In this document: positions 2,351-18,180 of the stretch, one piece after another
Numbering within the stretch: position 1 is the first letter of the stretch
Layout of the letters: every line of letters starts with the position of its first letter
Assembly: GCA_019695115.1 (NCBI GenBank)
Contig: JAIBAP010000032.1
Location: forward strand, 1-64,000
Direction of reading: 5' to 3'
Source: Caldilineales bacterium
Lineage (GTDB): Bacteria; Chloroflexota; Anaerolineae; J102
DNA: 64,000 bases
Notes under the pieces: generated by a model
Databases searched by the model: none
What the model was told of the DNA's origin: nothing
The model's input: only the letters and a program-made list of their open reading frames with translations
Made by a program: the position numbers and the translations under genes

Positions 2351-5300
2351 TCATTGGCTTTCCGTGACGATCAGGCGATAGCGCCCGCTCGTCCGCCCGC
2401 CCAAAGCGGCGGGCGAGATGATGCGGGGGTGCTCAGTCGCTTCGAAAACCAGTTGCGAGTTGAGACCGCCGCCGCCGTCGTCATCAGTTCGCCTGGCGCC
2501 GTTGGCGTCGACCACCGTCAGGTAGGGGTCGATGCCACTGCCGGCATCCTCCAGGCGGATGACGACGCGTTTGCCCTCGGCGCCGGTCAATTCCCAGGCG
2601 ATGCCCTCGGCAAGATCCACTTCCTTCGTTTCTCCCAGGCGAATCGGTCGCGTCTCTGGTCTGGGGAAGCTAAGGCGGTAGCCGCCGGTCGGCGTTTGGG
2701 CGCTGGGAATGATGCCGTAAAGCCCTTCAGAGGGCAGGACGGCCAAAGGCAGCACGGTACGATGGTTCTGGCCGCTGTTATCGGCGCGAGCGACCTCGCC
2801 GGTCGGGCCGACCAACCTGAGTGAGGGGAGGATGGTGGGGTCGTCGGTCGGGTCGAGGTTGATTCGTAGCAAGTCGCCGGCCGTGCCTGCGAAAACCCAA
2901 ACAACAGGCTGAGCGAAGTCGCCTTCCACAGGCTGGGGTGGCGTAATCGGCGTGGACTCAAGCTCTGTGATCGAGAGCTGATAAGCGCCAGAACTGCCAT
3001 CATTCAACGGGCGGGCGACGATGAGATAGGGGCCGTTGCTGCTGAGCACTGCCTCTGCTCGTGAGTTCGAACCTTGATAGTCATCATTTCTGGCAGCCAG
3101 TTTGCCGTTGGGGTCGTACACTTCTAGCAGGGTATCGAAATCGCTGCTGGTCATGTCGATGCGGACTACCTGACCGGCGTGTGCATCCAACTGCCACAGC
3201 CGATTGCCATCGCTGGGGGCTGAAATGGTTTGTCCCGCCCCAATAGGCGTTGCGCTCGCCTCGGCCACTGAGAGCCGGTAGGGGGCAACACTGTTGGGCC
3301 TGCCCACCTGAATGAGATAGCTTCCATCGGCTGGCAGGACGGCGGCCTGGATGCGGGCATTCAAACCGCCGCCGCCATTGTCGTTTTCGACGACGATGCT
3401 GCCATCGCTCCGGCGCAGGGTGAGGTAGGGATCGAAATTGGCGTCGCTGGTGCTGAGGGCGATATCGAGGATCTGGCCGGCGCGGCCTCTGAATTCCCAA
3501 AATGGCTGGCGGTCGCTGGAATTGGTGACTGACTGGCCGAGGGCGATGAGTGATGGCTTGGCTTCATTCATCGATAGCAAATAGGGGGCGTCGAGCGGGG
3601 GCTCACGCCTCTGAACTACCTGCACGAAGTACGTTCCGTCGGCCGGGAGGATGTCCTGAATGCGAGCATTGATGTCCGTCCCGCCATCATCGTCCTCCCG
3701 GAAGCTGTTGCCGTCGCTGCGGCGCACGATCAAATAGGGATCGAACTCAGACGCAGGGGCGGTGGTGGAAAGACTGATGTCGATCGGTTGGCCGGCGCGG
3801 CCGGCGAATTTCCACAATTCGTTCTGCGTGGTGGAGGGGACTGGCTTACCCGGTTCGAGATCGCCAGGGATGAGGGCTGAGAGGGTGATGGTATAGGGAT
3901 TGGCGCTGCTCGAAACATCAGGTGGGGTCGTTTTCAGGAAGTAGCGGCCATCGGCCGGGAGGATGAAGGGGGAGATGCGTTTGGCGCCGTCGGTCGCACT
4001 GGCGGCCTTGCCTTCGGCCAGTGTGCTGCCATCGGTCCGTTGCAAGGCCAGGTAGGGATCAAAGGTAGACGTTGCCGCCTGGAGGGTGACGCTGATGACC
4101 TGGCTCTGTTTGCCATCGAATGACCACAGGGGTTGCTCTTGGGTGTTCCCCGGCGTAGCTTGTTCGAATTTCAATGTGGCAGGCGCAGCGCCGGTTAGCG
4201 TCAGGTCATAGTCGATGCGAGCGTCATCCCGAACCCTGGGCGCGAGGCGATAGATGCCATCGGCAGGTAGAATGACTTCTAGCGACGAGTCGTTGCCATC
4301 ATTCCCGGCGTTGTTCCCCGAATATAGGCTGCCATCCGGCCCCTGCAATTCCATCCAGGCGCCGTAGCTGCTTTTCTCGGCGGCCAGGTAGATCGTGACC
4401 AGGTCGCCTTGTTTGCCATCGAAGAAGTATGCCTGGTCTTGGTTTGGCTCGTATCGATGGCTGATGGTCTTACCATAGGCCATGAATTCGGGCCGCCCCC
4501 TCAGATTCCAGCATCCTTCGGCATCACCCTGCTGACAGAGTGTGAAGTAGACTCTGTTCAACAAGGCTGAGATCGAACTCAATGCGACCGGCCAGGGTTC
4601 TGCTCCCTCAGCCATTGTCTTCAGATCGCCGGCCGCCTGCTTGAGCATGGAGCTATCATTGGCGGCAACCGCCTCTTCAGCTCGAACCAACTTCTTGCCA
4701 GTTTCTACAGCCTTGAGTGGGTCGAATGCCCGCTGCGAGTTGTTTTCGGCTGCCAGGTCGGCGGCAACTTGCAGGCACTGCAATGCCTGTTCCTCATAGA
4801 CGGCTTCGGGTAGGCGAAGTTTGCTGAGGGCCTCCTCACTGAGGGTCGAGAAAGCCGTATCCAACGGCTGTATGGATAGAGGCGGCGTCACAGTCATGTC
4901 TCGCGCTTGTTCCAAGAGCCGATAGCCTTGTTTGGCCTTCGCTATTTCGCAGTTTCGGATCAGTTTTGTCGCTTCATCCACGCGGGCCTGGGCGAAGGTC
5001 ACATCCAGGGGATAGTCACAGATACTGGCATCCCTATAGTCGATCGCTTCGGGAAAAGCGCGCTTCCATGCCTCATAGCTCAGATTGCCTTGAGCGCGCA
5101 CACAGGCCAGCTCCCGCCAGACGGCTTCGGTCATCGGCCATGCGATCACATCCTCGGCCCGCAAGGCGATCAGTTTTTGCTGTTCGGCGTCATAGGTCAC
5201 ATCGAGAGCCTTGTTGTCGAGTCTGAAGGCGGACACTTTCTTCCAACTCGGCAATTGCCAAAGTTCCAGCTCCGGCGCGTCCTCCGGCGCGTCCTCCGGC

Positions 5301-8300
5301 GCGTCAGAAGTGATTGCCAGCCAGTCATCGTCATGCAGAAAGGCGATGGCGTCGAATCTGCGCCTAGCTGATTCGTCGGGTGGCTCAGAGTGATCGATGC
5401 TTTCGTGGTCGCTCCAGTTCCAGATTGTGACCGCACCCTCTTTGCTCAGAGCGGCCAGGAGATTACCGTTGCTGCTGAAGGCAAGATCGCTGATCTTGGG
5501 CATGGTCCCCTTCAACGGTTCAGGTTGGCGTTCGGCATCCAGATAATGAGCTTCGACCCCGCCCGATGCCAGCCCCACCGCCAGGGCCTTCCCCTGCGGA
5601 TGAAAGGCCAGGGCATGGATCGGCTCAGCAAAGGGCAAAGTGATGGTCGAGTCATAGCCTCTTGATCGCACCTCCACCTGACATGCGCTGGCTTTCTGGC
5701 TGAGGTCAGGGGCTGTTTGCGGCCCAGATGGTTCGACACCGCCTGACCGGTTGTTTGTTCGATTGACTGCTGATTGGGCTGCGTTATTAGCTGGCGCCCC
5801 TTTCTCTTTTGTGCCGCACCACCCCACCGCCACCTGGCTGCCATCGGCGTTGAGTGCGACGGCGGTTGGGGTCATCGGGATGGTGAAACTAAAGGTTTGG
5901 CTGTCCGAGACCGGCGAGGCCACATAGACGCCCCAATGGTTGTCGACACTGCCCACATTTGCCAACCATGCGCCATCAGCACTCAAGGTTATCGTCATTG
6001 CTGACGCCGTTTGCGGTGATCGAAAGGACGGCGCAACCGGTCGGACGGCGGGGAACTCGGAGGGGTGGCTCAAATCCGAGGCGAAGGGTTCGGCATCCTG
6101 GGTGCTCACCGAAATCAGGCGTTGAGGAGTGGCGGGGTCGAACGCAACACTCCAGGCTTCGCCGCTATGACCAGGCATGACCAACGGTGCGGCGTTCGGA
6201 TGCGCCAAATCATAGACACGCACCTGGCCATCGCCCCATCCTGCAGCCAGCCGCTTGCCATCGCCAGGGCTGAAGGCGAGTTCCCATGCCTCGAACCCTT
6301 CGCGGGAGTGGTCGTCGATGACCTGGTTGGTCGGTGGGTCTTCGTTCAAGTTCCACAGCAGGATGCGGCTGTCGTCGCTGCCCGACGCCAGCTGGCTGCC
6401 ATCCGGGCTGAAAACGATGTCATTGACCCAGTCCGTATGGCCGCCTGTCAATGTCTGTGAGTTCGGCCGACGGGTTGTTAGATCACTCCAGAGAATAATG
6501 TCGCCACCCCTTCCAGCCGAAGCCAGCCGGTTGCCGTAGGGGTCGAAGGCGATCGCATAGGCCCAGTCGCTATGACGGCCGGGCAAGGTGCGGCTGACCG
6601 GGGCCGAAGCGGAGAGATCCCAAAGCGTCACTGTCCCATCCTGATTGCCCACAGCAAGCTGTTGGCCATCGGAGCTGAAGGCCACCGACCACATCGCCGG
6701 TTGCTCATCCGTCAGGACGGTTGGTTTGGGCGCGGCGGGGTCTTGGATGTCCCAGAGGATCAGTTTGTGCTTGAGGGCGGCAGGGTCATTGCGGTCGCCG
6801 CCGGTTGTGGCCAGCCGGGCGTGAGCCGGATCGAAGGCCAGGCTGTAGTCATGACCAGCGTAGGCGTCGTGCGCGTCCAGTCGCTCGCCGATCTGCTCAC
6901 CGCTGGCGTTGTCCCACAGGCTGAGGCCGCCCCGGTCGTCGAACAAAGCCAGGATGCGACCATCCTGGCTGAATGCGGCGCGCCGCCAGGGGCCATCTGT
7001 GGCAAAATCGAGCCGTTTGCCGGGTGCGATGGGCGAAATGTAGCCTTGTTGCAGCGCCTCTAGCAGCGCCGCCGTAGCTGGAAAGGTTGTCGTGTCGGAG
7101 ATGGCGCGGTGGGCAAGCAAGAGTTTGTCCACGATTGCGGCGCTATCAGTATCGAAAGACTCGTTGGCAAGTTTCAATGATTGTTCGGTCAGACGCAGCC
7201 TGTTCGCTTCGGCCTGTGCATCTTCGGCAGTCTCTTGGGCCACTTTCGCCCTCGATTCAGCAACGACCGCCTTGCTCGTCTGCGCTCTGGCATCGATCTC
7301 CGTCGTCTCGGCTTTGTGGCGTTCGTTCACTGCCACTTTCGCCGCCGCATTGGCTTGCGACCAGAAAAAGGCCGCCACCAAAGCCATCAGCACAGCGAAA
7401 AAGGCCGCCGCCCCTGCTGCCACTGCAACCCGGCGAAAGCGTTGTTTCTGTCGTGCTTCCTGATCGGCGCGTTCTTTCTCTTGTCGCGCCGTCTCCTGGG
7501 CTGCTTTCTCGCGCTTGGCCGCTTCATCCGCACGCCGTCGCGCCTCGAACATCTGGCGCTTCCGCTCGGCCTCTTGCCTGGCCTCCAGGAATTCCTCCAC
7601 CTCCGGCGACTGTCGTTGCCCCTGCGCCGCCTCCACCGCCTTCTGCAGGTCTTCGTCATCGAGCCGTAACTTGTCCGCGCTTCTTTCCGATTCGATCCAG
7701 ATACGCGCCGCCAGCACCAACGGCTGTGCATTCTGCTCCAACCACTTGCGGTTCCTGGCCCGGATGGGGTCGATGAAGCGGTCATGCACCAACTCATACC
7801 AGTAAGCGCCGGCGTGTGCTTCGGCTCGCAGCAGATATTTGTCCTCCAGGAATTCGACCACGCGATTGGGCATGCCTTCGGTCTCGGTCTTGCCTTTGTT
7901 CAGGAAGCCGCGCGTCCCCGCCTCGGTGATCAACTCGTCCGAAAACCAGGTGCGCAACTGCGCTTCCGTCACCTCCACGCCCTCCAGCGCCAGCGCCTGG
8001 CGCAGTCGCTCCTCATAGAAATCGCCCAACGCGTTGTCGACAAAGGTGGTCAAGTCGCCTTTAGCCAATTCCTTCAAGTCGTCGATGGTGATCGTTTGGC
8101 CCGCCTTCTCTTGCATACCCTCCCACATCTGATAACACACCACCTGCAATTGCACCGGCTGGACGAACTCGCCCTCTTGTCCTTGCCCCTCCTGGCTCTG
8201 CTCGCGCACCAGCAGCAGGTTACGGACAATCTCTTTGACTGCATCGGCTTCGATGGATCGCCCTTTCTTCTCGGCCGGCTTTTCGATTGCTTCGGTGGCT

Positions 8301-9046
8301 GCGGCCTCGCCCATCCGTTCCATAGCAAAACGGACAAAGGGAAAGCCTGGCAGCCGGGGTGCATAGCGTTCGATCTCCGGCACATAATCCGAGCGCATGC
8401 TCAGCACAACCCAAAGATGAGGGTCGTCTTGCAGGGCGTCGTTGATCTGGTCGAAGAATCTCTCGCGTTCGGGCCAGCGAGCGGGGTGGGTGGTGACGAG
8501 TTCTTCGAATTGATCGAGGATGAGCACGTGCGGCGGCTGTTTGCGTCGCGGCTGCGCCGGCGCAGCATTGGCTTCGGCGTTTGCTTTCTCGGCCTGGGCT
8601 GCAACATCGGCATCGTAGCTATAGCTTTTGCCATCGCTGGTGCGTAGCCCACGCATGAAATCCCTCAATGTCAGGTGGGCAAAGGTGCTCGACATCTCCC
8701 CTCGCCCATCGATGCTCGACATGACGTTGAAGGCATAGATATTGTCTATTTCGCCGCTGTCTTTGGCGGGTGCGCCGCCGACGCGAGCCAACGGCAGCAC
8801 CAGATAACGGACATCCTTGGCTCGCAAGCCCGGTATCAGCCGCACCTTCAGCAGCGAGCTTTTCCCGGCGCCGGATGGGGCATAGAAAAGCACAAGCCGG
8901 TGGGCAATCACGACCGAGAGGAGGTCGCGCGCCTCGCGTTCGCGCCCGAAGTAATAGCTGGCGTGTTTCTCGTCGAACTGCTGCGGCCCAACATAGGGGT
9001 TGGACGGCTCTTCGACCTTGGTGGGGGAGATGATGGGTTCTGCCAT
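2351..9046 (-). CDS. Membrane-anchored nSTAND NTPase with WD40 propellers and seven PPC-like repeats
   Basis: Predicted signal-transducing NTPase of 2231 residues. Order of parts: nSTAND1-type NTPase at about 17-430 with NPYVGPQQF and FGRE lead-in, Walker A APSGAGKSSL (56-65) and Walker B HVLILDQFEE (173-182). Next come a charged coiled coil (about 483-537), one hydrophobic helix (about 539-563), a second helical stretch, about 13 WD40-like blades (about 679-1300), a helical linker, and seven repeats of about 100 residues from about 1520 to the end. These repeats carry the PPC-type pattern DPYLTLRRSDGS...LPADGSYLIQV. Basic residues (QKQRFRR) just before the helix suggest the NTPase is cytoplasmic and the propellers and PPC repeats are outside. 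The start is set at MAEPIISP, one base after the stop of the SIR2 gene; earlier in-frame codons lie inside that gene. Effector or sensor roles are inferred from family knowledge. Confidence 0.9.
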   Translation of the reverse strand: MAEPIISPTKVEEPSNPYVGPQQFDEKHASYYFGREREARDLLSVVIAHRLVLFYAPSGAGKSSLLKVRLIPGLRAKDVRYLVLPLARVGGAPAKDSGEIDNIYAFNVMSSIDGRGEMSSTFAHLTLRDFMRGLRTSDGKSYSYDADVAAQAEKANAEANAAPAQPRRKQPPHVLILDQFEELVTTHPARWPERERFFDQINDALQDDPHLWVVLSMRSDYVPEIERYAPRLPGFPFVRFAMERMGEAAATEAIEKPAEKKGRSIEADAVKEIVRNLLLVREQSQEGQGQEGEFVQPVQLQVVCYQMWEGMQEKAGQTITIDDLKELAKGDLTTFVDNALGDFYEERLRQALALEGVEVTEAQLRTWFSDELITEAGTRGFLNKGKTETEGMPNRVVEFLEDKYLLRAEAHAGAYWYELVHDRFIDPIRARNRKWLEQNAQPLVLAARIWIESERSADKLRLDDEDLQKAVEAAQGQRQSPEVEEFLEARQEAERKRQMFEARRRADEAAKREKAAQETARQEKERADQEARQKQRFRRVAVAAGAAAFFAVLMALVAAFFWSQANAAAKVAVNERHKAETTEIDARAQTSKAVVAESRAKVAQETAEDAQAEANRLRLTEQSLKLANESFDTDSAAIVDKLLLAHRAISDTTTFPATAALLEALQQGYISPIAPGKRLDFATDGPWRRAAFSQDGRILALFDDRGGLSLWDNASGEQIGERLDAHDAYAGHDYSLAFDPAHARLATTGGDRNDPAALKHKLILWDIQDPAAPKPTVLTDEQPAMWSVAFSSDGQQLAVGNQDGTVTLWDLSASAPVSRTLPGRHSDWAYAIAFDPYGNRLASAGRGGDIILWSDLTTRRPNSQTLTGGHTDWVNDIVFSPDGSQLASGSDDSRILLWNLNEDPPTNQVIDDHSREGFEAWELAFSPGDGKRLAAGWGDGQVRVYDLAHPNAAPLVMPGHSGEAWSVAFDPATPQRLISVSTQDAEPFASDLSHPSEFPAVRPVAPSFRSPQTASAMTITLSADGAWLANVGSVDNHWGVYVASPVSDSQTFSFTIPMTPTAVALNADGSQVAVGWCGTKEKGAPANNAAQSAVNRTNNRSGGVEPSGPQTAPDLSQKASACQVEVRSRGYDSTITLPFAEPIHALAFHPQGKALAVGLASGGVEAHYLDAERQPEPLKGTMPKISDLAFSSNGNLLAALSKEGAVTIWNWSDHESIDHSEPPDESARRRFDAIAFLHDDDWLAITSDAPEDAPEDAPELELWQLPSWKKVSAFRLDNKALDVTYDAEQQKLIALRAEDVIAWPMTEAVWRELACVRAQGNLSYEAWKRAFPEAIDYRDASICDYPLDVTFAQARVDEATKLIRNCEIAKAKQGYRLLEQARDMTVTPPLSIQPLDTAFSTLSEEALSKLRLPEAVYEEQALQCLQVAADLAAENNSQRAFDPLKAVETGKKLVRAEEAVAANDSSMLKQAAGDLKTMAEGAEPWPVALSSISALLNRVYFTLCQQGDAEGCWNLRGRPEFMAYGKTISHRYEPNQDQAYFFDGKQGDLVTIYLAAEKSSYGAWMELQGPDGSLYSGNNAGNDGNDSSLEVILPADGIYRLAPRVRDDARIDYDLTLTGAAPATLKFEQATPGNTQEQPLWSFDGKQSQVISVTLQAATSTFDPYLALQRTDGSTLAEGKAASATDGAKRISPFILPADGRYFLKTTPPDVSSSANPYTITLSALIPGDLEPGKPVPSTTQNELWKFAGRAGQPIDISLSTTAPASEFDPYLIVRRSDGNSFREDDDGGTDINARIQDILPADGTYFVQVVQRREPPLDAPYLLSMNEAKPSLIALGQSVTNSSDRQPFWEFRGRAGQILDIALSTSDANFDPYLTLRRSDGSIVVENDNGGGGLNARIQAAVLPADGSYLIQVGRPNSVAPYRLSVAEASATPIGAGQTISAPSDGNRLWQLDAHAGQVVRIDMTSSDFDTLLEVYDPNGKLAARNDDYQGSNSRAEAVLSSNGPYLIVARPLNDGSSGAYQLSITELESTPITPPQPVEGDFAQPVVWVFAGTAGDLLRINLDPTDDPTILPSLRLVGPTGEVARADNSGQNHRTVLPLAVLPSEGLYGIIPSAQTPTGGYRLSFPRPETRPIRLGETKEVDLAEGIAWELTGAEGKRVVIRLEDAGSGIDPYLTVVDANGARRTDDDGGGGLNSQLVFEATEHPRIISPAALGGRTSGRYRLIVTESQ

Positions 9047-9047
9047 C

Positions 9048-10103
9048 TCAATTCGCCTCTGCCGCGTATTTCTCGAACAGCTCATGGATGAACTGAGTCG
9101 GGTCTTCCTCGATGACATCGAATGCAGCCTGGGTCAGATAACGCTGCAAGTAGATTTTGGCGCTTTCGTCGCGCTCAAGCTGAATGGCGACCCGCGACAC
9201 CTCGATCCCTTCTTTGATCGAAGGTTTGATCAAACCGCGGAAGAGCACCCGAAAATCCCAATCGTTGGGACGATAGCCGATCATGGCCAACGAGCGCAGG
9301 GTGAGGGCATCCTTGATGCGCGGGTGTACGGCCGGCTTCTGGGATTGGTCGGCGCTGACATCGCGAGAAATGGCAGCCAGGAAGTCCAGATGGTCATCCA
9401 CCGTCAGCACCAGCGACTCTGGCCAGTCGTCACAACCGTGCAAGTGGTAGACCAATGGCCGCTGTTTGGGGTCATAGTCGGCGCTATCGAATGGAGACGG
9501 AATGCTGTGCAGAGCCGGATGCCAGCGACAGATCTCGGTCGCGGCTTCGACCCCGCGCGTCTGTTTGATGGCCGCCTCCAACTGGCGGTGATAGCTGGTG
9601 GTCAGATAGATGGAGAGGGGCAAACTGGCCAGCAGCAACAAGGGGTTGGCATCCGGTTCGGACAGACTCGGCAAGTCGAAACGATCCGCCGCCGCAGAGA
9701 CGGTCAGCGTCTTCTTCTGAGCTTTGACTTCCTTGATCGCCTGTTCAGTGACCCCGTTTTTACGGCTTGCCACCACCACCAGGGCATCCTTGAGGAAGTC
9801 CAGATAGGATTTCTTGACGGCCGCTTCTTCGCGCATTGCCCCGCCAGCCTCGTTGTAGCGAGCGAATTGAGAAATGCGGGCGATGCTGAGGTTGGTCTTG
9901 TCGGCGGCATCAGGGTAACTGGCCCGTTTGGCCCAGCCGCTGACCAGGCTGTCGTGGCTGGTGAAGGTGAGGTCGTTGGTGAAACAGACGCCGACGATGG
10001 GGAGAACTTTGTCCTCTCTGATCTTGCCGGCCAGGGCAGCAACAGGGCCTTGATCGGCGTCCGTCGGTTGCATCTCTTCGCCTTCGAAACTGATGATTTC
10101 CAT
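9048..10103 (-). CDS. SIR2-like domain protein (predicted NAD-consuming effector)
   Basis: A 351-residue soluble protein of the SIR2-like type found in bacterial conflict systems. Visible motifs are LPIVGVCFTND (34-44), matching the degenerate nucleotide-binding loop, YLTTSYH (166-172), VYHLHG (218-223) carrying the conserved histidine, and MIGYRPNDWDFRVLFR (274-289), a sequence typical of defence-associated SIR2 proteins. In that family the domain usually hydrolyses NAD+, but activity here is an inference. The gene is tightly coupled: its stop is one base from the STAND gene start and it begins two bases after the FGE-fold gene ends. A classical sirtuin deacetylase is unlikely because the zinc-binding cysteine module is absent. 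Confidence 0.85.
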   Translation of the reverse strand: MEIISFEGEEMQPTDADQGPVAALAGKIREDKVLPIVGVCFTNDLTFTSHDSLVSGWAKRASYPDAADKTNLSIARISQFARYNEAGGAMREEAAVKKSYLDFLKDALVVVASRKNGVTEQAIKEVKAQKKTLTVSAAADRFDLPSLSEPDANPLLLLASLPLSIYLTTSYHRQLEAAIKQTRGVEAATEICRWHPALHSIPSPFDSADYDPKQRPLVYHLHGCDDWPESLVLTVDDHLDFLAAISRDVSADQSQKPAVHPRIKDALTLRSLAMIGYRPNDWDFRVLFRGLIKPSIKEGIEVSRVAIQLERDESAKIYLQRYLTQAAFDVIEEDPTQFIHELFEKYAAEAN

Positions 10104-10105
10104 GA

Positions 10106-11119
10106 CTAGACCTTGTTGGTTGGGGGGATTTCCATCGCCACGCGAAAGCCACGGTTCGGCAAGCGATCTTCTTCGGGGGCGCCACGGCGGGTGGCATTGG
10201 TCACGCCGCCGGGTTGGCTGGCATAGGAACCACCGCGCACGATGCGGCGAACAATGACAGTGTAGCGGGCGGCGTCGGGGTCTTCGCGGCCATCGTCACT
10301 GCGATAGGGATAGGGGAAATCACTCACGGCATCCTGGCTGCCCCAGATCGTCTGCGTCCACTCTTCGGCATTGCCCATCATATCCATACAGCCAAACGTA
10401 CTTGCCCCCTCAGGAAACTGGCGGACGGGCGTCGTGCCGCCCCCGCCCATGTTGCAGACGCCGTCGCGCCACTCATCTCCCCAGGGAAAGCGGGTGTTCA
10501 GCCGCCCGCGCGCCGCCCTTTCCCATTCAGCTTCGGTGGGCAGGCGATAGTGAGGGCCGCTCTTATCCCGGCCCGATTTCTCGTTCAGCCAATCGCAGTA
10601 GGCGCGGGCCTCGCGCCAGCTCACATTCACCACCGGATGGTCCTCGATATTTTTAGGCGGTTTGCGCATCAGCCAGTTGCGGGCAGGCGGCGACACACTG
10701 GGCCGAGCCTTGAGGAAGTCGGCGTACTCTTTGTTGGTCACCGGAAACACACCGATGCAATAGCCCGCCAACCTTATATCGTGCGGTGGGGATTCGTTGG
10801 CGCTCTCGCTGCCCATGCAGAATGTACCTTCGGGGATCGGCGTCATCTCCGACTCGAACGGCAGCCGCGGACACTCCGGCTCTGCCTCCAGCCCGGGCCC
10901 TGCCGCGACCCCGTGCTCAGCCTCCAACTCGCCCAGCCGCCGCAGGTCAGCTTGGATTTGCTCCTCGCGCTGTTTGATCTCGACCCGCGCCTTAGCCGCT
11001 TCGACAACACCGGCCGTGATCTCGCCCTGGCGCAGCTCTTGCACAAGTTGCTTGTTGGTTTGCAGGCGCGCCTGAATCTGGCGCATTTCGTCTTCTAGCA
11101 ATTGGCGTTGGCTGGGCAT
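10106..11119 (-). CDS. FGE-sulfatase/SUMF1-fold protein with N-terminal coiled coil
   Basis: A 337-residue protein. Residues 1-70 are a charged coiled coil (ending near RRLGELEAEHG). Residues 91-337 are a formylglycine-generating-enzyme fold with IPEGTFCMGSES, FPVTNKEYADFL, RLPTEAEWERAARG, FPWGDEW, MMGNAEEW and RGGSY motifs. The cysteines of true formylglycine-generating enzymes near the C-terminus are missing (GGSYASQPGGV), so sulfatase activation is unlikely. A binding or recognition role, common for this C-type-lectin-like fold, fits better. It is the first gene of a cassette with the SIR2-like and STAND genes. The start at ATG 11119 is chosen over an in-frame TTG at 11152. Neither has a good ribosome-binding site, so the start is uncertain. 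Confidence 0.85.
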   Translation of the reverse strand: MPSQRQLLEDEMRQIQARLQTNKQLVQELRQGEITAGVVEAAKARVEIKQREEQIQADLRRLGELEAEHGVAAGPGLEAEPECPRLPFESEMTPIPEGTFCMGSESANESPPHDIRLAGYCIGVFPVTNKEYADFLKARPSVSPPARNWLMRKPPKNIEDHPVVNVSWREARAYCDWLNEKSGRDKSGPHYRLPTEAEWERAARGRLNTRFPWGDEWRDGVCNMGGGGTTPVRQFPEGASTFGCMDMMGNAEEWTQTIWGSQDAVSDFPYPYRSDDGREDPDAARYTVIVRRIVRGGSYASQPGGVTNATRRGAPEEDRLPNRGFRVAMEIPPTNKV

Positions 11120-11230
11120 AGAATCAGATCGGGGGTTCTCGATGAAATGCAAGTTTTTCGCCGATTATCCGTCAAAACGATAAATACCTTTGTTTCTGCG
11201 AATATGCCAGAAACTCGGATGAACGTCAAA

Positions 11231-13459
11231 TCACGCCAGCGGATCCACCCGCTCGAACGCGGCAACCATCTGGCGCAGGAGGGCGGCGGGGCGGGGGGCG
11301 CCGGCGGGGCCGTAGTGCAGGGCGGCGAAAACGTCGAGATCGCCCTGGCGCAGGGCTTGCAGGCGGCGGGAGTCGGCCGCTGGCCCGGCGATGAAGTCGA
11401 ACCAGGCCAGCGCCTGGAAGCGCTCATGGCTGGCGAAGGCGTCGAGCATGGCTTTGGCCGAGTCGTAGCCGGCCGCCGCATGGGTCAGGCCCATCAGCCG
11501 GGGGAAACCGAGCGCGGTCGCGTCCAGGGCAGCGGCCTGATCGAGCGAGACCGCCCGCCGGAAGGCCGCCCATTCGCTGTTTTGCGCGCGGTGCACCTCG
11601 CGCCAGCCGGCCTGGGCGGAGGGCCGCCAGCGGTGCTGCTGCCAGGGGCGGTCGGGGTCGAAGCTGAAATGCCGGGCGAAGACCTCGGCCTGGCCTTGGC
11701 CCCAGCGATCCCAGAAGGCGTCGATCTCGAAACGGATCACCAGCCGGCCGGCTTCGTCCATCCCCCGGCGGTCGGCGACCAGGGCCAACACAGCGGTGGC
11801 GATGCTGATTGGCAGCTTGAGGATGTCGGCCACCTCGACCAGCAGGAAGCCGAAACGGTTCCAGACGGCGGCCAGACGGCGCTCGGCCGGGCCGGCGTCG
11901 GGGGCGGGGTCGATGCGCAGGGCAGCGGGCAGGTCGAGGCCGGTCTGGCTCAGTTCGGGCCAGCGGGCAAGGAAGGCATCGTGGACGGGGAAGCCGAAAT
12001 CGACATCGTCGGGCAGGGCGGCGCGGATCTGTTGGCGTTCTTCGGCGCTCAGGCTGGCAATGGCATCGAGGGCGGGGCCGCGATAGGGGCTGCGGCGGTC
12101 TTTGACCAGGGCGCCCAGGCTCAGCCCGGCCTTGCCCATCAGCCCCCAGTTGCCCAGGCCCAGGGCAATCGAGGCGCGGTTGAAGGCGTTGATGACCTGG
12201 TTGTTGGTGGCGCCGAGTGGGATCGGGGCGACGTCGATGTCCGGGACGACGGGGCGCGGCTCGATGACCGGAGGCACGTCGATGTCGGGGAGGGGGTCGG
12301 GTTGGGGGAGAGGGGCGGGCGAGGGCGGGCGCGGGGCGATGGGTTCCACCACCGGCGCCACTACCGGCGCGACCGGCAATCCCTGCCATTCGCGGGCGCA
12401 GAAGGTCTGCAAGGTCGCATAGACCGGTTTGCGGTGGCCGATGTCCAGCCCGCCGGGGCGGTAGACGCCGTAGTATTTGTCGCCGTCCAGCGGGCCAAAG
12501 TCCTGGGTGCAGAACCACACCGCCAGCTCGATCCACGGGTCCTTGAGCAGCAGTTCCAGGCCCAGCGGCAGATTGCGCGACTGGAAGTCATCCTGGCCGC
12601 CGTTGCTGTGCCAGCCTACCTCCGAGACGAAGATCGGTCGCCGGCCCCCCTCCTCGGCCTGGATGACATCTTTGACGCCCTTGAGATAGCGGGCATAGGT
12701 GATGGGCACCTGCCGGGCTTGCTGTTCCCACGGCCTGGGTCCTTCTTCGACATAAAGATGATAGCCGACGCCGTCGAAGGGGAAGGCCTTGCCGCTGGCG
12801 CCCCAGCCGAAGCGCCTCTTGCCCTCGCGATAGGTCTGGCGCAGATACTCGGCCCCGGCGTTGCGGTTGATGCCCAGCCCCTGCACCGGCCCCGAGGCCA
12901 GCCTGACCTGGCTCAGCCCCATCTCGGACTTGACCTTGTTGTAGATGCGCTCGAGGAGGATGGCGAACCAGCCCGGATGCACCCAGTTGCTCTTGCCGTG
13001 ATGCCAGTCGTCCGGCTCGTTGAACGATTCCCACACGGCCACATCAGCCTGGAAGCGACGGACGATGCTGGCAAAAGTCTCGACATAACGGTCGAGCCAT
13101 TCCTGCCGGAAGGCGGAATTGGCGGGTCGCTGGCGCAGGGCGTCGCCGAAGTCGGTGGGGCGCACGGCTTCGCAGTTGATCAGCCCGTAGATTTTCAGCC
13201 CCCGGCCCTTGAGCCCGGCGATGATCTGGCGGAAGCACTGTTCCCAACCGGCGTCCTCGACCGAGGCGAAGTCGCCGAGGACGAAGTTGAGCCGCACCCA
13301 GCCCACGCCGGTGTCGGCGATGAGGGCGGGGTTGGCGAGGCGCGGGCTGGGGCCGAGGCCTTCGAGCGGGTTGTTGGCGTCGATGCCGATGCGTTCGCGG
13401 GCGCGGAGGGTGTCTGGGCTGGGGATGGGCAGGGGTGGGGGGATGTGGGGGCCGATCAT
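11231..13459 (-). CDS. Glycoside-hydrolase-like (clan GH-A) protein with helical C-terminal half
   Basis: A 742-residue protein. Residues about 20-360 look like a TIM-barrel glycosidase of clan GH-A: WESFNEPDDW puts the acid/base glutamate at residue 148, and PIFVSEVGWHS puts the nucleophile at E280. No signal peptide is seen, which is odd for a polysaccharide-degrading enzyme. A Pro-rich linker (about 370-410) leads to an alpha-helical region of about 330 residues (NNQVINAFNRASIALG onwards) that I do not recognise. An AGGAG sits nine bases before the ATG at 13459, supporting this start. It is the last gene of a minus-strand group with the C25-like peptidase and the Gly/Asp-rich protein. Substrate unknown. 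Confidence 0.75.
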   Translation of the reverse strand: MIGPHIPPPLPIPSPDTLRARERIGIDANNPLEGLGPSPRLANPALIADTGVGWVRLNFVLGDFASVEDAGWEQCFRQIIAGLKGRGLKIYGLINCEAVRPTDFGDALRQRPANSAFRQEWLDRYVETFASIVRRFQADVAVWESFNEPDDWHHGKSNWVHPGWFAILLERIYNKVKSEMGLSQVRLASGPVQGLGINRNAGAEYLRQTYREGKRRFGWGASGKAFPFDGVGYHLYVEEGPRPWEQQARQVPITYARYLKGVKDVIQAEEGGRRPIFVSEVGWHSNGGQDDFQSRNLPLGLELLLKDPWIELAVWFCTQDFGPLDGDKYYGVYRPGGLDIGHRKPVYATLQTFCAREWQGLPVAPVVAPVVEPIAPRPPSPAPLPQPDPLPDIDVPPVIEPRPVVPDIDVAPIPLGATNNQVINAFNRASIALGLGNWGLMGKAGLSLGALVKDRRSPYRGPALDAIASLSAEERQQIRAALPDDVDFGFPVHDAFLARWPELSQTGLDLPAALRIDPAPDAGPAERRLAAVWNRFGFLLVEVADILKLPISIATAVLALVADRRGMDEAGRLVIRFEIDAFWDRWGQGQAEVFARHFSFDPDRPWQQHRWRPSAQAGWREVHRAQNSEWAAFRRAVSLDQAAALDATALGFPRLMGLTHAAAGYDSAKAMLDAFASHERFQALAWFDFIAGPAADSRRLQALRQGDLDVFAALHYGPAGAPRPAALLRQMVAAFERVDPLA

Positions 13460-13680
13460 GGTGGGCGTCTCCTGGTGGGGGGAGGGCGGGGGTGATCCGC
13501 GAAGGACGCGAAGGGGGCGAAGGGGGGGGATCCGCGAAGGGGGCGAAGGTGGAATGTGGATCTGCGCCTATCAGGGCACTGATCTTGACGCCCAGAACGT
13601 GCATTTCGCTTCAGGGTCAGGTGCGCGAGGTGGCGCAGGGGGATGGGGTTTCGGTCAATCAGGCGGTTGTTCCGGGCACA
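13460..13680. other. Intergenic region with GA-rich simple sequence
   Basis: No gene supported. Around 13495-13560 the plus strand has near-repeats of 'gatccgcgaaggacgcgaagggggcgaagg', a simple-sequence patch similar to the filler seen elsewhere in the window. No hairpin with a U-tract was noticed. Confidence 0.4.
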
Positions 13681-15189
13681 TCAGCCTCCACGCAAAGTCG
13701 TTGCTTCTTTAGCCGGAGCAGGGGGCGGCGCCATCCCCCCCAACCTCACCGCCGGATCCCCCACCACCACATAATTGCGGGCGTCGCTGTTGGCCGTCCA
13801 CAGCCGCGCCAACTCCTCCGGGCGCACCGCCTCGCCCCCTTTGATCTGCTCGATGCGGTCGGCCACCTCAGTGCTCAGCTCGGCATAGCGGACGTTGAAA
13901 TCCTCCGTCACCGCCCCCAGGCGCTCACCGGCGAACAACCGTTGCAAGGCGCTGTCGAAGGTTGTCTCCTGTCGCACCCCCTCCCAGATGAAACTCGCCC
14001 CCCAGGCCCGGTCCACGTGCCCCACCACCGCCAGCGCCCCGCCCCTGGGGTGGCCCAACAGCCGTTGTGGGAGGCGGGCGATAAAAGGCTCCGGCGCCAC
14101 CGGGATGCGCGTCACCTGCTCCAGCCCGCCCACCTGCACCCCCGCCTCTTGCCAGGTGCGGATGGCGAACTCATCATCTTTGGGTGCGCCTGCCCCGTAG
14201 CAGGCGAAGAAGAAAGCAATCAATCCCTGCACCTGGGCGTCGTCGCCGATATCGCGCGCCGCCAGATAGTGCCCATCCCCCAGCGCACCCTCGCCCGGCC
14301 AGTCGCTGCAGATCAGCGCCCCCTGCTCCTCCCGCTGCCGCGGATGCCCCACCTGCCCGAAGCCCATCCCGTGGCTGGCGCTGAAGAGAAAGGCCGGCGT
14401 ATCCTCACCGCCCAGCAGCCGGCTCAACTGCGTCTTGCTGGCCCCTTCGCCGATCCAGCTCTGCACCTGCCAGCCTTGCAAGCGCCGGCTGAAGGCAGCC
14501 GCCAGCGGATCGACGAGTTCGCCCGCGCTGAGGGCCGTGGCGCGGTCGGCGCCGTTTCTGGCCCCGAAGAAGGCCGCCTTGCGTTTCGGCGGCCCTTGCG
14601 GTTCCCCGCTTTCGGCTGCCACCAGGCTGCGGGCGTAATGCTCGTATTCCGCTGTCGTCTCGAAATGGATACGACCCACGGCATAGGCCACATCTAGCTG
14701 GTATTGGAAGCGATAGGGGATGTGGGCCGGGTCGCCGACGATGAGCAGGTAATAGGGCACCTTGCGCGGATCGACCACGCCCGGCGAGGCGTTGTTGCGG
14801 GTCAGCCAGGCATTCTTCGAGTCTCCCGGCTTGTAACGGAAGCGCGGCGAGAGACCGGCGTCGCGGTACAGCCCGCCCGCCTGCTCTCGCCGCAATCGCA
14901 ACAGAGGGCCGAGCGCCTCGCGGATGGCGGCAAGCTGCGGGTCGCCCTCGGCGAAGATCACCCCCCAGCCGGCCTGGGCCAGATCGTTGGCATTCACCCC
15001 TGCCATCACCCCCCGCCAGCCCTGGCCCTCGCCCAACCCGCGTTTGCCCATCCGCAAATCCTTCAGCTCCTCCGCCGAAAGCGGCTGGCCCTGCACCAGG
15101 TCGGCCAGACGGGCGGCCGTCAGCGCTGGCAGCAGCGGCTGGCCGGTGAGGGCGTCGATGCCGTTGGCGAAGATGAAGTCATCGTTCAT
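13681..15189 (-). CDS. C25/caspase-fold (clan CD) cysteine peptidase-like protein
   Basis: A 502-residue protein with the clan CD catalytic arrangement. FLFSASHGMGFG places a histidine at residue 273 after a hydrophobic strand, and IAFFFACYGAG places a cysteine at 330 after another. LLIVGDPAHIPY (149-158) and the closing NYVVVGDPAVRL are typical of the gingipain-like C25/CHAT group. There is no signal peptide, so a cytoplasmic role is likely. Start ATG at 15189 lacks a clear Shine-Dalgarno. It lies 78 bases downstream of the 199-residue protein gene and upstream of the glycosidase-like gene, all in the same direction. Regulated proteolysis is an inference; the target is unknown. Confidence 0.75.
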   Translation of the reverse strand: MNDDFIFANGIDALTGQPLLPALTAARLADLVQGQPLSAEELKDLRMGKRGLGEGQGWRGVMAGVNANDLAQAGWGVIFAEGDPQLAAIREALGPLLRLRREQAGGLYRDAGLSPRFRYKPGDSKNAWLTRNNASPGVVDPRKVPYYLLIVGDPAHIPYRFQYQLDVAYAVGRIHFETTAEYEHYARSLVAAESGEPQGPPKRKAAFFGARNGADRATALSAGELVDPLAAAFSRRLQGWQVQSWIGEGASKTQLSRLLGGEDTPAFLFSASHGMGFGQVGHPRQREEQGALICSDWPGEGALGDGHYLAARDIGDDAQVQGLIAFFFACYGAGAPKDDEFAIRTWQEAGVQVGGLEQVTRIPVAPEPFIARLPQRLLGHPRGGALAVVGHVDRAWGASFIWEGVRQETTFDSALQRLFAGERLGAVTEDFNVRYAELSTEVADRIEQIKGGEAVRPEELARLWTANSDARNYVVVGDPAVRLGGMAPPPAPAKEATTLRGG

Positions 15190-15267
15190 GGTGTTTTGGG
15201 ATGCGTGAAGGGCGCAAAGGGGCGCGAAGGGTGTTGGGCAATGGACGATGGCAACGCAGGCCCGGCT

Positions 15268-15867
15268 CTAGAACTGGAGGCCGAGATGCCGGGCAAAGCG
15301 GTCGAGTTTGTCTTCGATCCGCTGCAACTGCGCGGCCAGAGCCGCCACCTCGCCGCTGCCGCCGCTGCTCCCCCCGCCGGTATCGTTGCCAGTATCGTCA
15401 CCGGTATCGTCACCATCAGCGGTCCGCTCGCGGAAGAGAAGGTGGAAGCAGACATGATGGCCGCCGGGCAGGCCCAGGCCCCCGACCACGTCGCTGTCGA
15501 TGTTGCCGGCGGCGTCGCCGATGTAGATCGCCAACGGCCCCTGCTGCGAGGGATTGTAGACGTTGGTGATCATGTGCTGGATCGGGTAGTTGGGGTTGCC
15601 CGGCCTCCCCCGACCTTCGAAATGGGCGACATCTCCCTTCCAGGGCCAGGCCAGCCAGCAGGTCGCCGAGATCGCGTCATAGCCGTCCTTGTCCTTGACG
15701 AAGATACTGGCTACGGTGTTGCCCTGGGCCGCGACTTCGTCGATCAGCGTCGCCCTGATCAGTTCGTACTTCGTCCCCGGCATGGGCGCATGCGTGAGCT
15801 GGACGCCCGTCACCATGCCGCCGGACTCCGAAAAACGCCTGCAATTTTCATCACGTGGGTCAGACAT
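15268..15867 (-). CDS. Small protein with beta-rich N-terminus, Asp/Gly linker and C-terminal coiled coil
   Basis: A 199-residue protein of unrecognised family. Residues 1-150 look like a compact beta-rich domain ending in VGGLGLPGGHHVCFHLLF. Then comes a low-complexity Asp/Gly/Thr/Ser linker (about 152-172) and a short amphipathic helix (VAALAAQLQRIEDKLDRFA) that could oligomerise. Start ATG at 15867 is supported by GGGGAG seven bases upstream. It is first in a same-strand group with the C25-like peptidase and the GH-like protein. The N-terminal part resembles domains I associate with phage or lysozyme accessory modules, but I cannot name it. Confidence 0.6.
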   Translation of the reverse strand: MSDPRDENCRRFSESGGMVTGVQLTHAPMPGTKYELIRATLIDEVAAQGNTVASIFVKDKDGYDAISATCWLAWPWKGDVAHFEGRGRPGNPNYPIQHMITNVYNPSQQGPLAIYIGDAAGNIDSDVVGGLGLPGGHHVCFHLLFRERTADGDDTGDDTGNDTGGGSSGGSGEVAALAAQLQRIEDKLDRFARHLGLQF

Positions 15868-16764: not shown

Positions 16765-17766
16765 ATGAACCGCCTCACCCTCGAACGCCAGGCTGACCTC
16801 ATCGAAGCCGTCCTGTCCGCACACAAGATCGACAGCCATGTCTGGGGCGGCACGGTCACGCCCCGCTTCATCCGCTTCGACCTCACCGCCACACTCGGCG
16901 CCCGCGTCCAGAAGATCCTCGCCCTCAAAGACGAGATCGCTCTCTCGCTCGGCGTCAAGGACATCCGCCTGTACCGCGAAGGCGGCGCCATCCGGCTGGA
17001 GGTGCCGCGCCCGCAACCCGCCACCATCCGGCTGCTGCCCTTGTGCGCCGGGCTGAGCAAGACGCCGCCGCTCTCGGCTGTGCTGGGGGTGGATGCAGAG
17101 GGTGCGCCCTTGCTCTTGCGGCTGCCCAGCCCGGAGGTGGCGCATGTGCTGGTGGCGGGGACGACGGGCAGTGGCAAGACGGCGCTGTTGCGTTCGATGC
17201 TGCTGAGCCTGGCCCTGAACAACCCCCAGCGCAGCCTGCAACTGGCCTTGATCGACCCCAAGGGTCGGGGTTTTGGCGCCCTGGCGGGGCTGCCGCACCT
17301 GGTGCGCCCGGTGGTGACCGAGGCCGAGATGGCGGTGCGGCTGCTGGCGGGGCTGGTGGAGGAGATGGAGCGCCGCGACCGCGAGAAGCGGAGCGAGCCG
17401 GCGCTGGTGGTGGCGATCGATGAACTGGCCGACCTGCGTCAGGTGGGCGGGAAGGCGGTGGAGGAGTTGCTGGCGCGGCTGACGCAACGCGGGCGGGAGG
17501 CGGGAGTGCATGTGATCGTGGCCACACAGCGGCCGGCGGCGACGGTGGTGGGGAGCCTGGTGAAGGCGAACCTGCCGGTGCGGCTGGTGGGGGCAGTGGG
17601 CAGCGCCGAAGATGCGAAGGTGGCGATGGGGGTGGCCGGGAGCGGGGCCGAGCGCCTCAAAGGGAGGGGCGACTTCTTGCTGGTGGCCCGCGGGCAGACG
17701 GTGCGCCTGCAGGCGGCCTACATTAGCGAACAAGAAGTCATCCAGGCCGTCTCTCACTTGAAATGA
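16765..17766 (+). CDS. Soluble FtsK/SpoIIIE-type P-loop ATPase
   Basis: A 333-residue motor ATPase of the FtsK/SpoIIIE/HerA class. Walker A is GTTGSGKTA (132-140), followed by LIDPKGRGF (162-170) typical of FtsK DNA pumps, Walker B LVVAIDELADL near 215, and GVHVIVATQRP and NLPVRLVGAVGSAEDA, which match the FtsK sensor region. There is no membrane anchor, and no gamma winged helix beyond the motor, so it is shorter than chromosome-partitioning FtsK. DNA translocation is a family-based inference. Start at MNRLTLERQ is chosen because the upstream in-frame sequence is simple repeats; no clear Shine-Dalgarno precedes it. The stop codon lies within the first unit of a tandem repeat array. Confidence 0.82.
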   Translation: MNRLTLERQADLIEAVLSAHKIDSHVWGGTVTPRFIRFDLTATLGARVQKILALKDEIALSLGVKDIRLYREGGAIRLEVPRPQPATIRLLPLCAGLSKTPPLSAVLGVDAEGAPLLLRLPSPEVAHVLVAGTTGSGKTALLRSMLLSLALNNPQRSLQLALIDPKGRGFGALAGLPHLVRPVVTEAEMAVRLLAGLVEEMERRDREKRSEPALVVAIDELADLRQVGGKAVEELLARLTQRGREAGVHVIVATQRPAATVVGSLVKANLPVRLVGAVGSAEDAKVAMGVAGSGAERLKGRGDFLLVARGQTVRLQAAYISEQEVIQAVSHLK

Positions 17767-17940
17767 CACAAATGGGGGAAACACAGATACATTGTTTTGA
17801 TGACACAAATGGGAGAAACACAGATACATTGTTTTGATGACACAAATGGGGGAAACAGAGATACATTGTTTTGATGACACAAATGGGGGAAACACAGATA
17901 CATTGTTTTGATGACACAAATGGGAGAAACACAGATACAA
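17763..17940. repeat. Tandem array with 37-bp period (four full copies plus one partial)
   Basis: Units begin at 17763, 17800, 17837, 17874 and 17911. Each starts with ATGACACAAATGGG, then (G/A)GAAACACAGATAC, then a tail ATTGTTTTG. The copies are contiguous with no spacers and differ at one or two positions. The array begins on the stop codon of the FtsK-like gene. An array with the same core and same period but a different tail lies at 55533-55632. Confidence 0.9.
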
Positions 17941-18180
17941 CCTGCCACCTCCCGCTGATCAAGACCCCCCCCCCTGCCACCCCCCCCCTGTCTACCTGCC
18001 CCCTGCCACCCTGCCTCGTCTACCTGCCTACCCGCCACTTGTCTACCTGCCACCTGCCACCCGCCACCTGTCTACCTGTCTACCTGTCTACCTGTCTACT
18101 TGTCTACCTGCCACCCGCCACCTGCCACCCGCCACTTGCCACCCGCCACTTGCCACCTGCCACTTGTCTACTCCCCCCCA
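17941..18180. repeat. Low-complexity CTGCCACC/TGTCTACC tract
   Basis: Irregular tandem repeats of 'ctgccacc', 'cgccac' and 'tgtctacc' fill this stretch up to the ribosome-binding site of the next gene. The complement of the same words (ggtggcaggtggcag) appears at about 22937-22980, so the family is dispersed. No gene seen. Confidence 0.75.

Follow-up and report, generated by a model that had tools for sequence, protein, structure and literature searches.

A gingipain-fold C25 peptidase in a probable STAND-controlled conflict locus of a Caldilineales bacterium

The described STAND conflict systems contain, between them, nSTAND1, CHAT, SIR2 and FGE lectin-fold parts (PMC7159879, eLife 2020; PMC8195603, eLife 2021; and PMC10907252, the paper on diversity-generating retroelements, DGR). 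C25 and gingipain are absent from the texts of PMC7159879 and PMC8195603, and C25 is absent from that of PMC10907252. A literature search for C25 together with STAND or CHAT, with preprints and most subscription papers outside its scope, returned no prior description. The gingipain family is known mainly for secreted virulence proteases. Here we describe a locus in 64,000 nt of DNA from a Caldilineales bacterium (assembly GCA_019695115.1, contig JAIBAP010000032.1, positions 1-64,000; this whole stretch is called the window), in which a peptidase of family C25 is encoded in one directional run with an nSTAND1 NTPase. The original prediction had taken three genes, coding for a small protein, the C25 peptidase and a glycosidase-like protein of the GH-A type, for a cassette of their own. 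We find that this trio is the front half of a single six-gene locus (2351-15867), which is probably a self-defence or cell-death system.

The C25 peptidase and its linkage to STAND genes

Judged by its modelled fold, its catalytic dyad and its profile match, the 502-aa protein is a member of peptidase family C25. The match to Pfam Peptidase_C25 (PF01364) reached 27.4 bits, for a cut-off of 23, and covered the profile's C-terminal quarter; for the homologue of locus L035 the match extended over 118-374 of 374. In the AlphaFold model (pLDDT 77, pTM 0.82), the fold was that of gingipain RgpB (1cvr and 4ief, Z 23.9, rmsd 3.5 over 309-315 residues), with weaker matches to TPR-CHAT (Z 15.6), separase (14.7) and metacaspase (10.9). 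Foldseek also ranked gingipains at the top. A sequence-profile search of the PDB with the C25 alignment gave no match, whereas the fold search did find the gingipains. Relatives of the protein carry the NCBI label "C25 family cysteine peptidase".

The catalytic residues proposed originally for a caspase-fold peptidase, H273 and C330, lie at these positions and are conserved in homologues: of the homologous segments, which come from 81 loci, 84 of 84 have the His and 83 of 84 the Cys. The protein is predicted to be proteolytically active. No signal peptide was seen by eye, the N-terminus (MNDDFIFANGIDALTG) being devoid of a hydrophobic signal segment; as had been claimed for the glycosidase-like protein, none was obvious by eye at the N-termini of any of the three proteins of the trio. 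Two variations of the domain were observed among relatives. At L035:9645-12182 a carbon-nitrogen hydrolase (nitrilase) domain is joined to the C25 domain in one protein, and for 31 C25 relatives a C-terminal domain, which the window C25 lacks, is duplicated as a separate downstream gene of about 126 aa.

Of 400 genomes of the phylum searched first for C25 relatives, 26 were positive, as were 7 of 61 near relatives. Scanning 84,980 species genomes then turned up 273 C25 relatives; the 80 best loci were retained, and linkage was counted over 81 loci. Neighbours were assigned with hidden Markov models built from sequences gathered in this analysis, and several assignments were checked with Pfam. 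The C25 loci belong to at least nine phyla (Chloroflexota, Cyanobacteriota, Acidobacteriota, Planctomycetota, Myxococcota, Thermodesulfobacteriota, Pseudomonadota, Actinomycetota, Latescibacterota and others). An nSTAND1 gene was present in 37 of the 81 loci, CHAT in 39 and SIR2 in 18, and at least one of the three in 24 of the 34 loci of 17 kb or more. The nearest such gene was on the same strand as C25 for 40 of 45 loci; in 19 it followed on that strand with a gap of 200 bp or less, some pairs overlapping.

Individual arrangements support the connection. A genome of the same family (G402), whose C25 is 63-65% identical to that of the window, has the order C25, CHAT-FGE, SIR2, nSTAND1, with neither the GH-A-like nor the small gene, and an AbiEi/AbiEii toxin-antitoxin pair lies just upstream (L116:295-1935). 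Genome G432 encodes a 910-aa nSTAND1-C25 fusion (L119:4241-6973) behind a CHAT-SIR2 gene, and G425 has CHAT-SIR2, nSTAND1-WD40 and C25 in succession. C25 is also beside or near CHAT genes in annotated plasmid records of Planktothrix, Nostoc and Sinorhizobium. The suspected link of a clan CD peptidase to the STAND cassette is thus supported by the synteny in G402, the fusion in G432 and the linkage across many phyla.

The features of the window locus, all on the minus strand, are as follows.

15268-15867, minus: small protein, 199 aa; a domain of about 150 residues and unassigned fold, a Gly/Asp linker and a conserved C-terminal coiled coil
13681-15189, minus: C25 (gingipain-fold) cysteine peptidase, 502 aa; Pfam match, fold match, conserved dyad
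14371-14373, minus: codon of His273, predicted catalytic residue of C25
14200-14202, minus: codon of Cys330, predicted catalytic residue of C25
11231-13459, minus: GH-A-like and N-acetylmuramidase-like protein, 742 aa
12365-13402, minus: its GH-A-like domain, residues ~20-365, with E148 (ESFNEP) and E280 (SEVGW)
12005-12223, minus: its module of about 75 residues (TNNQVINAF... GLSLGAL...YRGP), between the GH-A and muramidase parts
11255-11887, minus: its muramidase-like domain, residues ~525-735, general-acid Glu replaced by Val561, Glu578 kept
10106-11152, minus: FGE-sulfatase (C-type-lectin fold) protein with a coiled-coil N-terminus, PF03781 1.1e-45; fused to CHAT in G402
9048-10103, minus: SIR2-like protein, PF13289 5.9e-15; the canonical TTN motif is TTS
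2351-9118, minus: nSTAND1 NTPase with WD40 and PPC repeats, open reading frame of 2255 aa; PF20703 1.7e-37, WD40, PPC

The three predicted open reading frames of the trio were confirmed. The six genes are transcribed in one direction, in the order small, C25, GH-muramidase, FGE, SIR2, nSTAND1, with gaps of 78, 221, about 80 and 2 bp, followed by an overlap of SIR2 and nSTAND1. No terminator-like site was found between them on the minus strand. Relatives, moreover, join C25 directly to STAND genes, and the description of the trio as a second cassette was wrong: the nSTAND1 NTPase and the effector genes form one directional run with conserved linkage. A promoter-like site is present ahead of the FGE gene (11229-11201), such sites occurring overall at about chance level; an internal start before FGE is therefore possible.

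The SIR2 part was compared with the NADase motifs, which we take from ThsA to be a catalytic Asn (TTN) and a His (LHG). In the motif alignment the window protein has TTS and keeps LHG, so that only one of the two residues is present, and most relatives have LFG. By motif, the SIR2 parts of these loci look degenerate. On the FtsK side, an FtsK gene was found in family members, and in the part of the flanks examined the cassette was not beside it. Outside the locus, a tandem repeat at 17738-18053 (minus strand) encodes "CVSPICVIKTMYL" stretches in the list of open reading frames.

The partner proteins of the window lineage

The glycosidase-like protein had been described as a GH-A-like domain followed by an unknown helical half of 330 residues. 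The Glu pair of the first part, E148 (acid/base, in NEP) and E280 (nucleophile, in SExGW), was found as predicted, and it is kept in a 42% identical paralogue on contig C107 of the same genome and in locus L130. GH family profiles did not match the window protein; among 13 relatives, two matched Cellulase GH5 (PF00150, best 8.2e-7) and three DUF5722. The second half turned out to be recognisable. It holds an N-acetylmuramidase domain (PF11860, residues 555-721, E 2.6e-18, 67.3 bits for a cut-off of 22.3), with matches to PHROG endolysins, and is preceded at ~413-485 by a module of about 75 residues common to other Chloroflexota GH proteins (G423, G422 and G435 match residues 362-491 of the query).

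Both Glu29 and Glu46 are required for full muralytic activity of the PF11860 enzyme Pae87, and E29A causes a marked loss (PMC8972805). An alignment set the window domain against free-standing muramidases; among these, L066 was in turn aligned to the PDB structures of Pae87 and AP3gp15. The position of Glu29, the general acid, is occupied by Val561 in the window, by Ser in the C107 paralogue, by Ala in L130 and by Gln in one of two L192 copies. L132, the second L192 copy and the free-standing L066, L067, L091 and L093 retain the Glu; in that second L192 copy the GH nucleophile is lost (ISAIGW). Because the general acid is lost and the fold kept, the sequence makes the GH-muramidase more likely a glycan binder than a lytic enzyme. 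Since the GH-A site looks unimpaired, the protein could hydrolyse another glycan.

The window and C107 domains are the only two PF11860 domains of the genome, and both lie in nSTAND1 loci, strong nSTAND1 matches numbering seven in 6 Mb. By inference, co-location within 10 kb by chance would have, in a genome of 5 Mb, a probability well below 1% for each case. At the C107 locus (L064), the GH-A/GH-A/muramidase gene is beside a metacaspase-like gene and genes for giant caspase-like/nSTAND1-WD40 proteins.

The small protein gave no match in Pfam, NCBIfam, PADLOC or PHROG, and its AlphaFold model (pLDDT 41.6) was too poor for a fold search. It has a 62% identical counterpart encoded next to C25 in L130; over its first ~150 residues, it also matches a module that forms the C-terminus of a GH-A-like protein of 900 aa from the same genome (contig C126, BLASTP 5e-8). 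The coiled coil for which it had been named is present, short and C-terminal; the protein consists mainly of the ~150-residue domain.

How constant these partners are was judged from the C25 loci. L130, from a metagenome-assembled genome of a Lake Pavin Chloroflexota, holds the full gene set of the window reordered (GH-muramidase, small, C25, nSTAND1, FGE, SIR2 and a second nSTAND1, all in one direction); its genes are 53-68% identical to those of the window, and C25 and nSTAND1 overlap by 4 bp. GH-A/muramidase or muramidase genes are present in four C25 loci: the window, L130, L132 (muramidase part) and L192. In a C25 tree made by a quick method, L192 is in a supported branch separate from the clade with the window, L130 and L132, which forces at least two changes. 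A module with two transmembrane segments is fused to the GH-muramidase in L192 and to C25 in L155, L191 and L146, and adjoins C25 as a separate gene in L121. Directly behind C25, L192 also has genes for a patatin-like phospholipase (5443-6639) and a subtilase (6680-7831). By the refuting conditions set originally, the outcome is mixed: the C25 catalytic residues are conserved and the trio recurs with STAND genes in L130, but neither the GH nor the small gene is present in most relatives of C25, so the trio is not the conserved unit. A self-contained trio cassette was accordingly rejected.

In other lineages C25 adjoins different proteins. The motif SF[SAGT][VI][GNQ] was found in 16 of 39 C25-adjacent partner proteins, versus 10 of 558 other neighbours (loci L134-L190), the motif having been chosen post hoc and the relatives not being independent. 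Its carriers are a 266-aa downstream family and an upstream hydrolase-like family of about 450 aa, as well as the C25 linker of L184 and L190; a scan of the window cassette proteins gave no match. The motif is a candidate cleavage or docking site.

Proposed function and its rivals

With moderate confidence, we read the locus as a conflict or cell-death system under STAND control, with C25 as its executioner and with the GH-A/pseudo-muramidase and small proteins as a partner module specific to this lineage. An immune role is plausible. What stays constant in these loci is the NTPase switch, together with a peptidase whose dyad is nearly invariant. The nSTAND1-WD40-PPC protein would be the NTP-dependent receptor and switch, with the FGE (lectin fold) and SIR2-like proteins as accessory sensor or adaptor parts. 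We infer that assembly of nSTAND1, which carries the WD40/PPC sensor, activates C25, an intracellular gingipain-fold peptidase that would cleave a cellular or locus-encoded target, leading to immunity or cell death. The GH-A/pseudo-muramidase and small proteins most likely would bind glycans of the envelope or peptidoglycan, to sense or to target, and be handled by C25.

Several results weigh against this proposal. PADLOC found no system matching the locus. STAND, CHAT and SIR2 are all missing from 10 of the 34 longer C25 loci (17 kb or more), and the linkage counts are not population estimates, since they come from best-scoring loci with flanks of varying length and many short contigs. Loss of the muramidase general acid is not universal, the Glu being intact in L132 and one L192 copy. 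Finally, the homologue of the GH protein in G402 lies on another contig, which has no STAND genes, and several free-standing GH-A relatives adjoin housekeeping genes.

The partner module could be given a different role. The GH-A/muramidase protein might attack the wall as an effector that C25 releases or activates, lysing the cell from inside in the manner of an endolysin. Both GH-A glutamates are preserved in the window, C107 and L130, the muramidase Glu is retained by L132 and by the L192 copy that also has the membrane module, and endolysins are members of the muramidase family; but the general acid, whose mutation in Pae87 (E29A) markedly lowers muralytic activity, is lost in the window, C107, L130 and the other L192 copy, no export signal was seen, and the L192 protein with the intact muramidase has lost its GH nucleophile. 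We regard such a payload as rather unlikely. Alternatively, the GH-muramidase and small genes could have come in between C25 and FGE as passengers with no relation to the rest. This was favoured at first, after G402, which lacks them, as do most C25 loci. It was then weakened by L130, which holds all parts in another order, and by L132 and L192, the latter placing GH/muramidase beside C25 in a second branch. The two-transmembrane module shared by GH-muramidase and C25, and the confinement of the PF11860 domains of the genome to nSTAND1 loci, argue in the same direction, and pure passengers now seem quite unlikely.

Other rivals concern the locus as a whole. Instead of warding off invaders, the locus could serve regulated cell death or the remodelling of the wall in filamentous Chloroflexota, which would fit the glycan-related domains, the single copy of C25 in the genome and the Oscillochloris relatives, in which C25 is beside response-regulator and SufE-like genes and not STAND. 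The patchy spread over many phyla and on plasmids, the swapping of components, the AbiE neighbour in G402 and the likeness to conflict systems already described (PMC7159879, PMC8195603) speak against development or envelope homeostasis, which we consider doubtful. Secreted digestive or predatory enzymes are suggested by the secreted founding members of C25 and by the often extracellular GH-A domains, but this is very improbable given the lack of a signal peptide obvious by eye on any of the three proteins, the operon with cytosolic STAND and SIR2 genes and the fusion of C25 to nSTAND1. A remnant of a prophage lysis module, for which the PHROG endolysin matches and a weak match to phage Pan1 could be cited, is the least credible and was rejected: searches of phage records and viral contigs yielded no C25, GH-muramidase was not found in the viral contigs scanned (with a two-member alignment), and the neighbouring genes are STAND and housekeeping genes.

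If the STAND-controlled reading is true, the gingipain family joins the caspase-like executioners of bacterial immunity. The locus offers a link from STAND receptor to peptidase that is concrete and can be tested, including a natural nSTAND1-C25 fusion, and a disarmed cell-wall enzyme within it raises the question of an envelope-damage sensor, a targeting subunit or a protease substrate. More tentatively, gingipain-fold C25 peptidases may, in at least nine phyla, be widespread and so far undescribed intracellular executioners in conflict systems of the STAND/CHAT/SIR2 kind, with exchangeable partners: here GH-A with an inactive muramidase, elsewhere a hydrolase-like or a 266-residue protein with an SF[SAG][VI]G motif, a possible cleavage or docking site.

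Comparison with described systems

The muramidase domain resembles the PF11860 endolysins Pae87 and AP3gp15 in profile and in its second catalytic Glu (E578), whereas it has Val561 for the general acid, sits behind a GH-A domain and is part of a STAND locus. Thoeris, made of the SIR2 protein ThsA and the TIR protein ThsB, is not what we find: the SIR2 protein matches ThsA weakly, and no TIR gene is among the six.

The C25 protein shares with gingipains RgpB and Kgp the fold (Z 21.8-23.9), the Pfam model and the His/Cys dyad. It differs by an identity of about 12%, by the lack of an obvious signal peptide, which by eye sets it apart from the secreted gingipains proper, and by the linkage or fusion of its relatives to nSTAND1 and CHAT. 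The next-best fold match, TPR-CHAT/Csx29, belongs to Craspase, a caspase-like protease under an immune switch; the window C25, in contrast, is not CRISPR-linked and is nearer to gingipain than to CHAT.

In architecture the locus is like the STAND/CLec and EAD conflict systems of multicellular bacteria (PMC7159879, PMC8195603, PMC10907252), in which nSTAND1, FGE, caspase-like CHAT and SIR2 domains are likewise shuffled among adjacent genes and whose carriers include filamentous Chloroflexota. The copy of the C25 C-terminal domain in a neighbouring small gene recalls the adaptor logic of EADs. The constant part here, in contrast, is a gingipain-fold peptidase, joined in the window lineage by GH-A/muramidase-like and small proteins.

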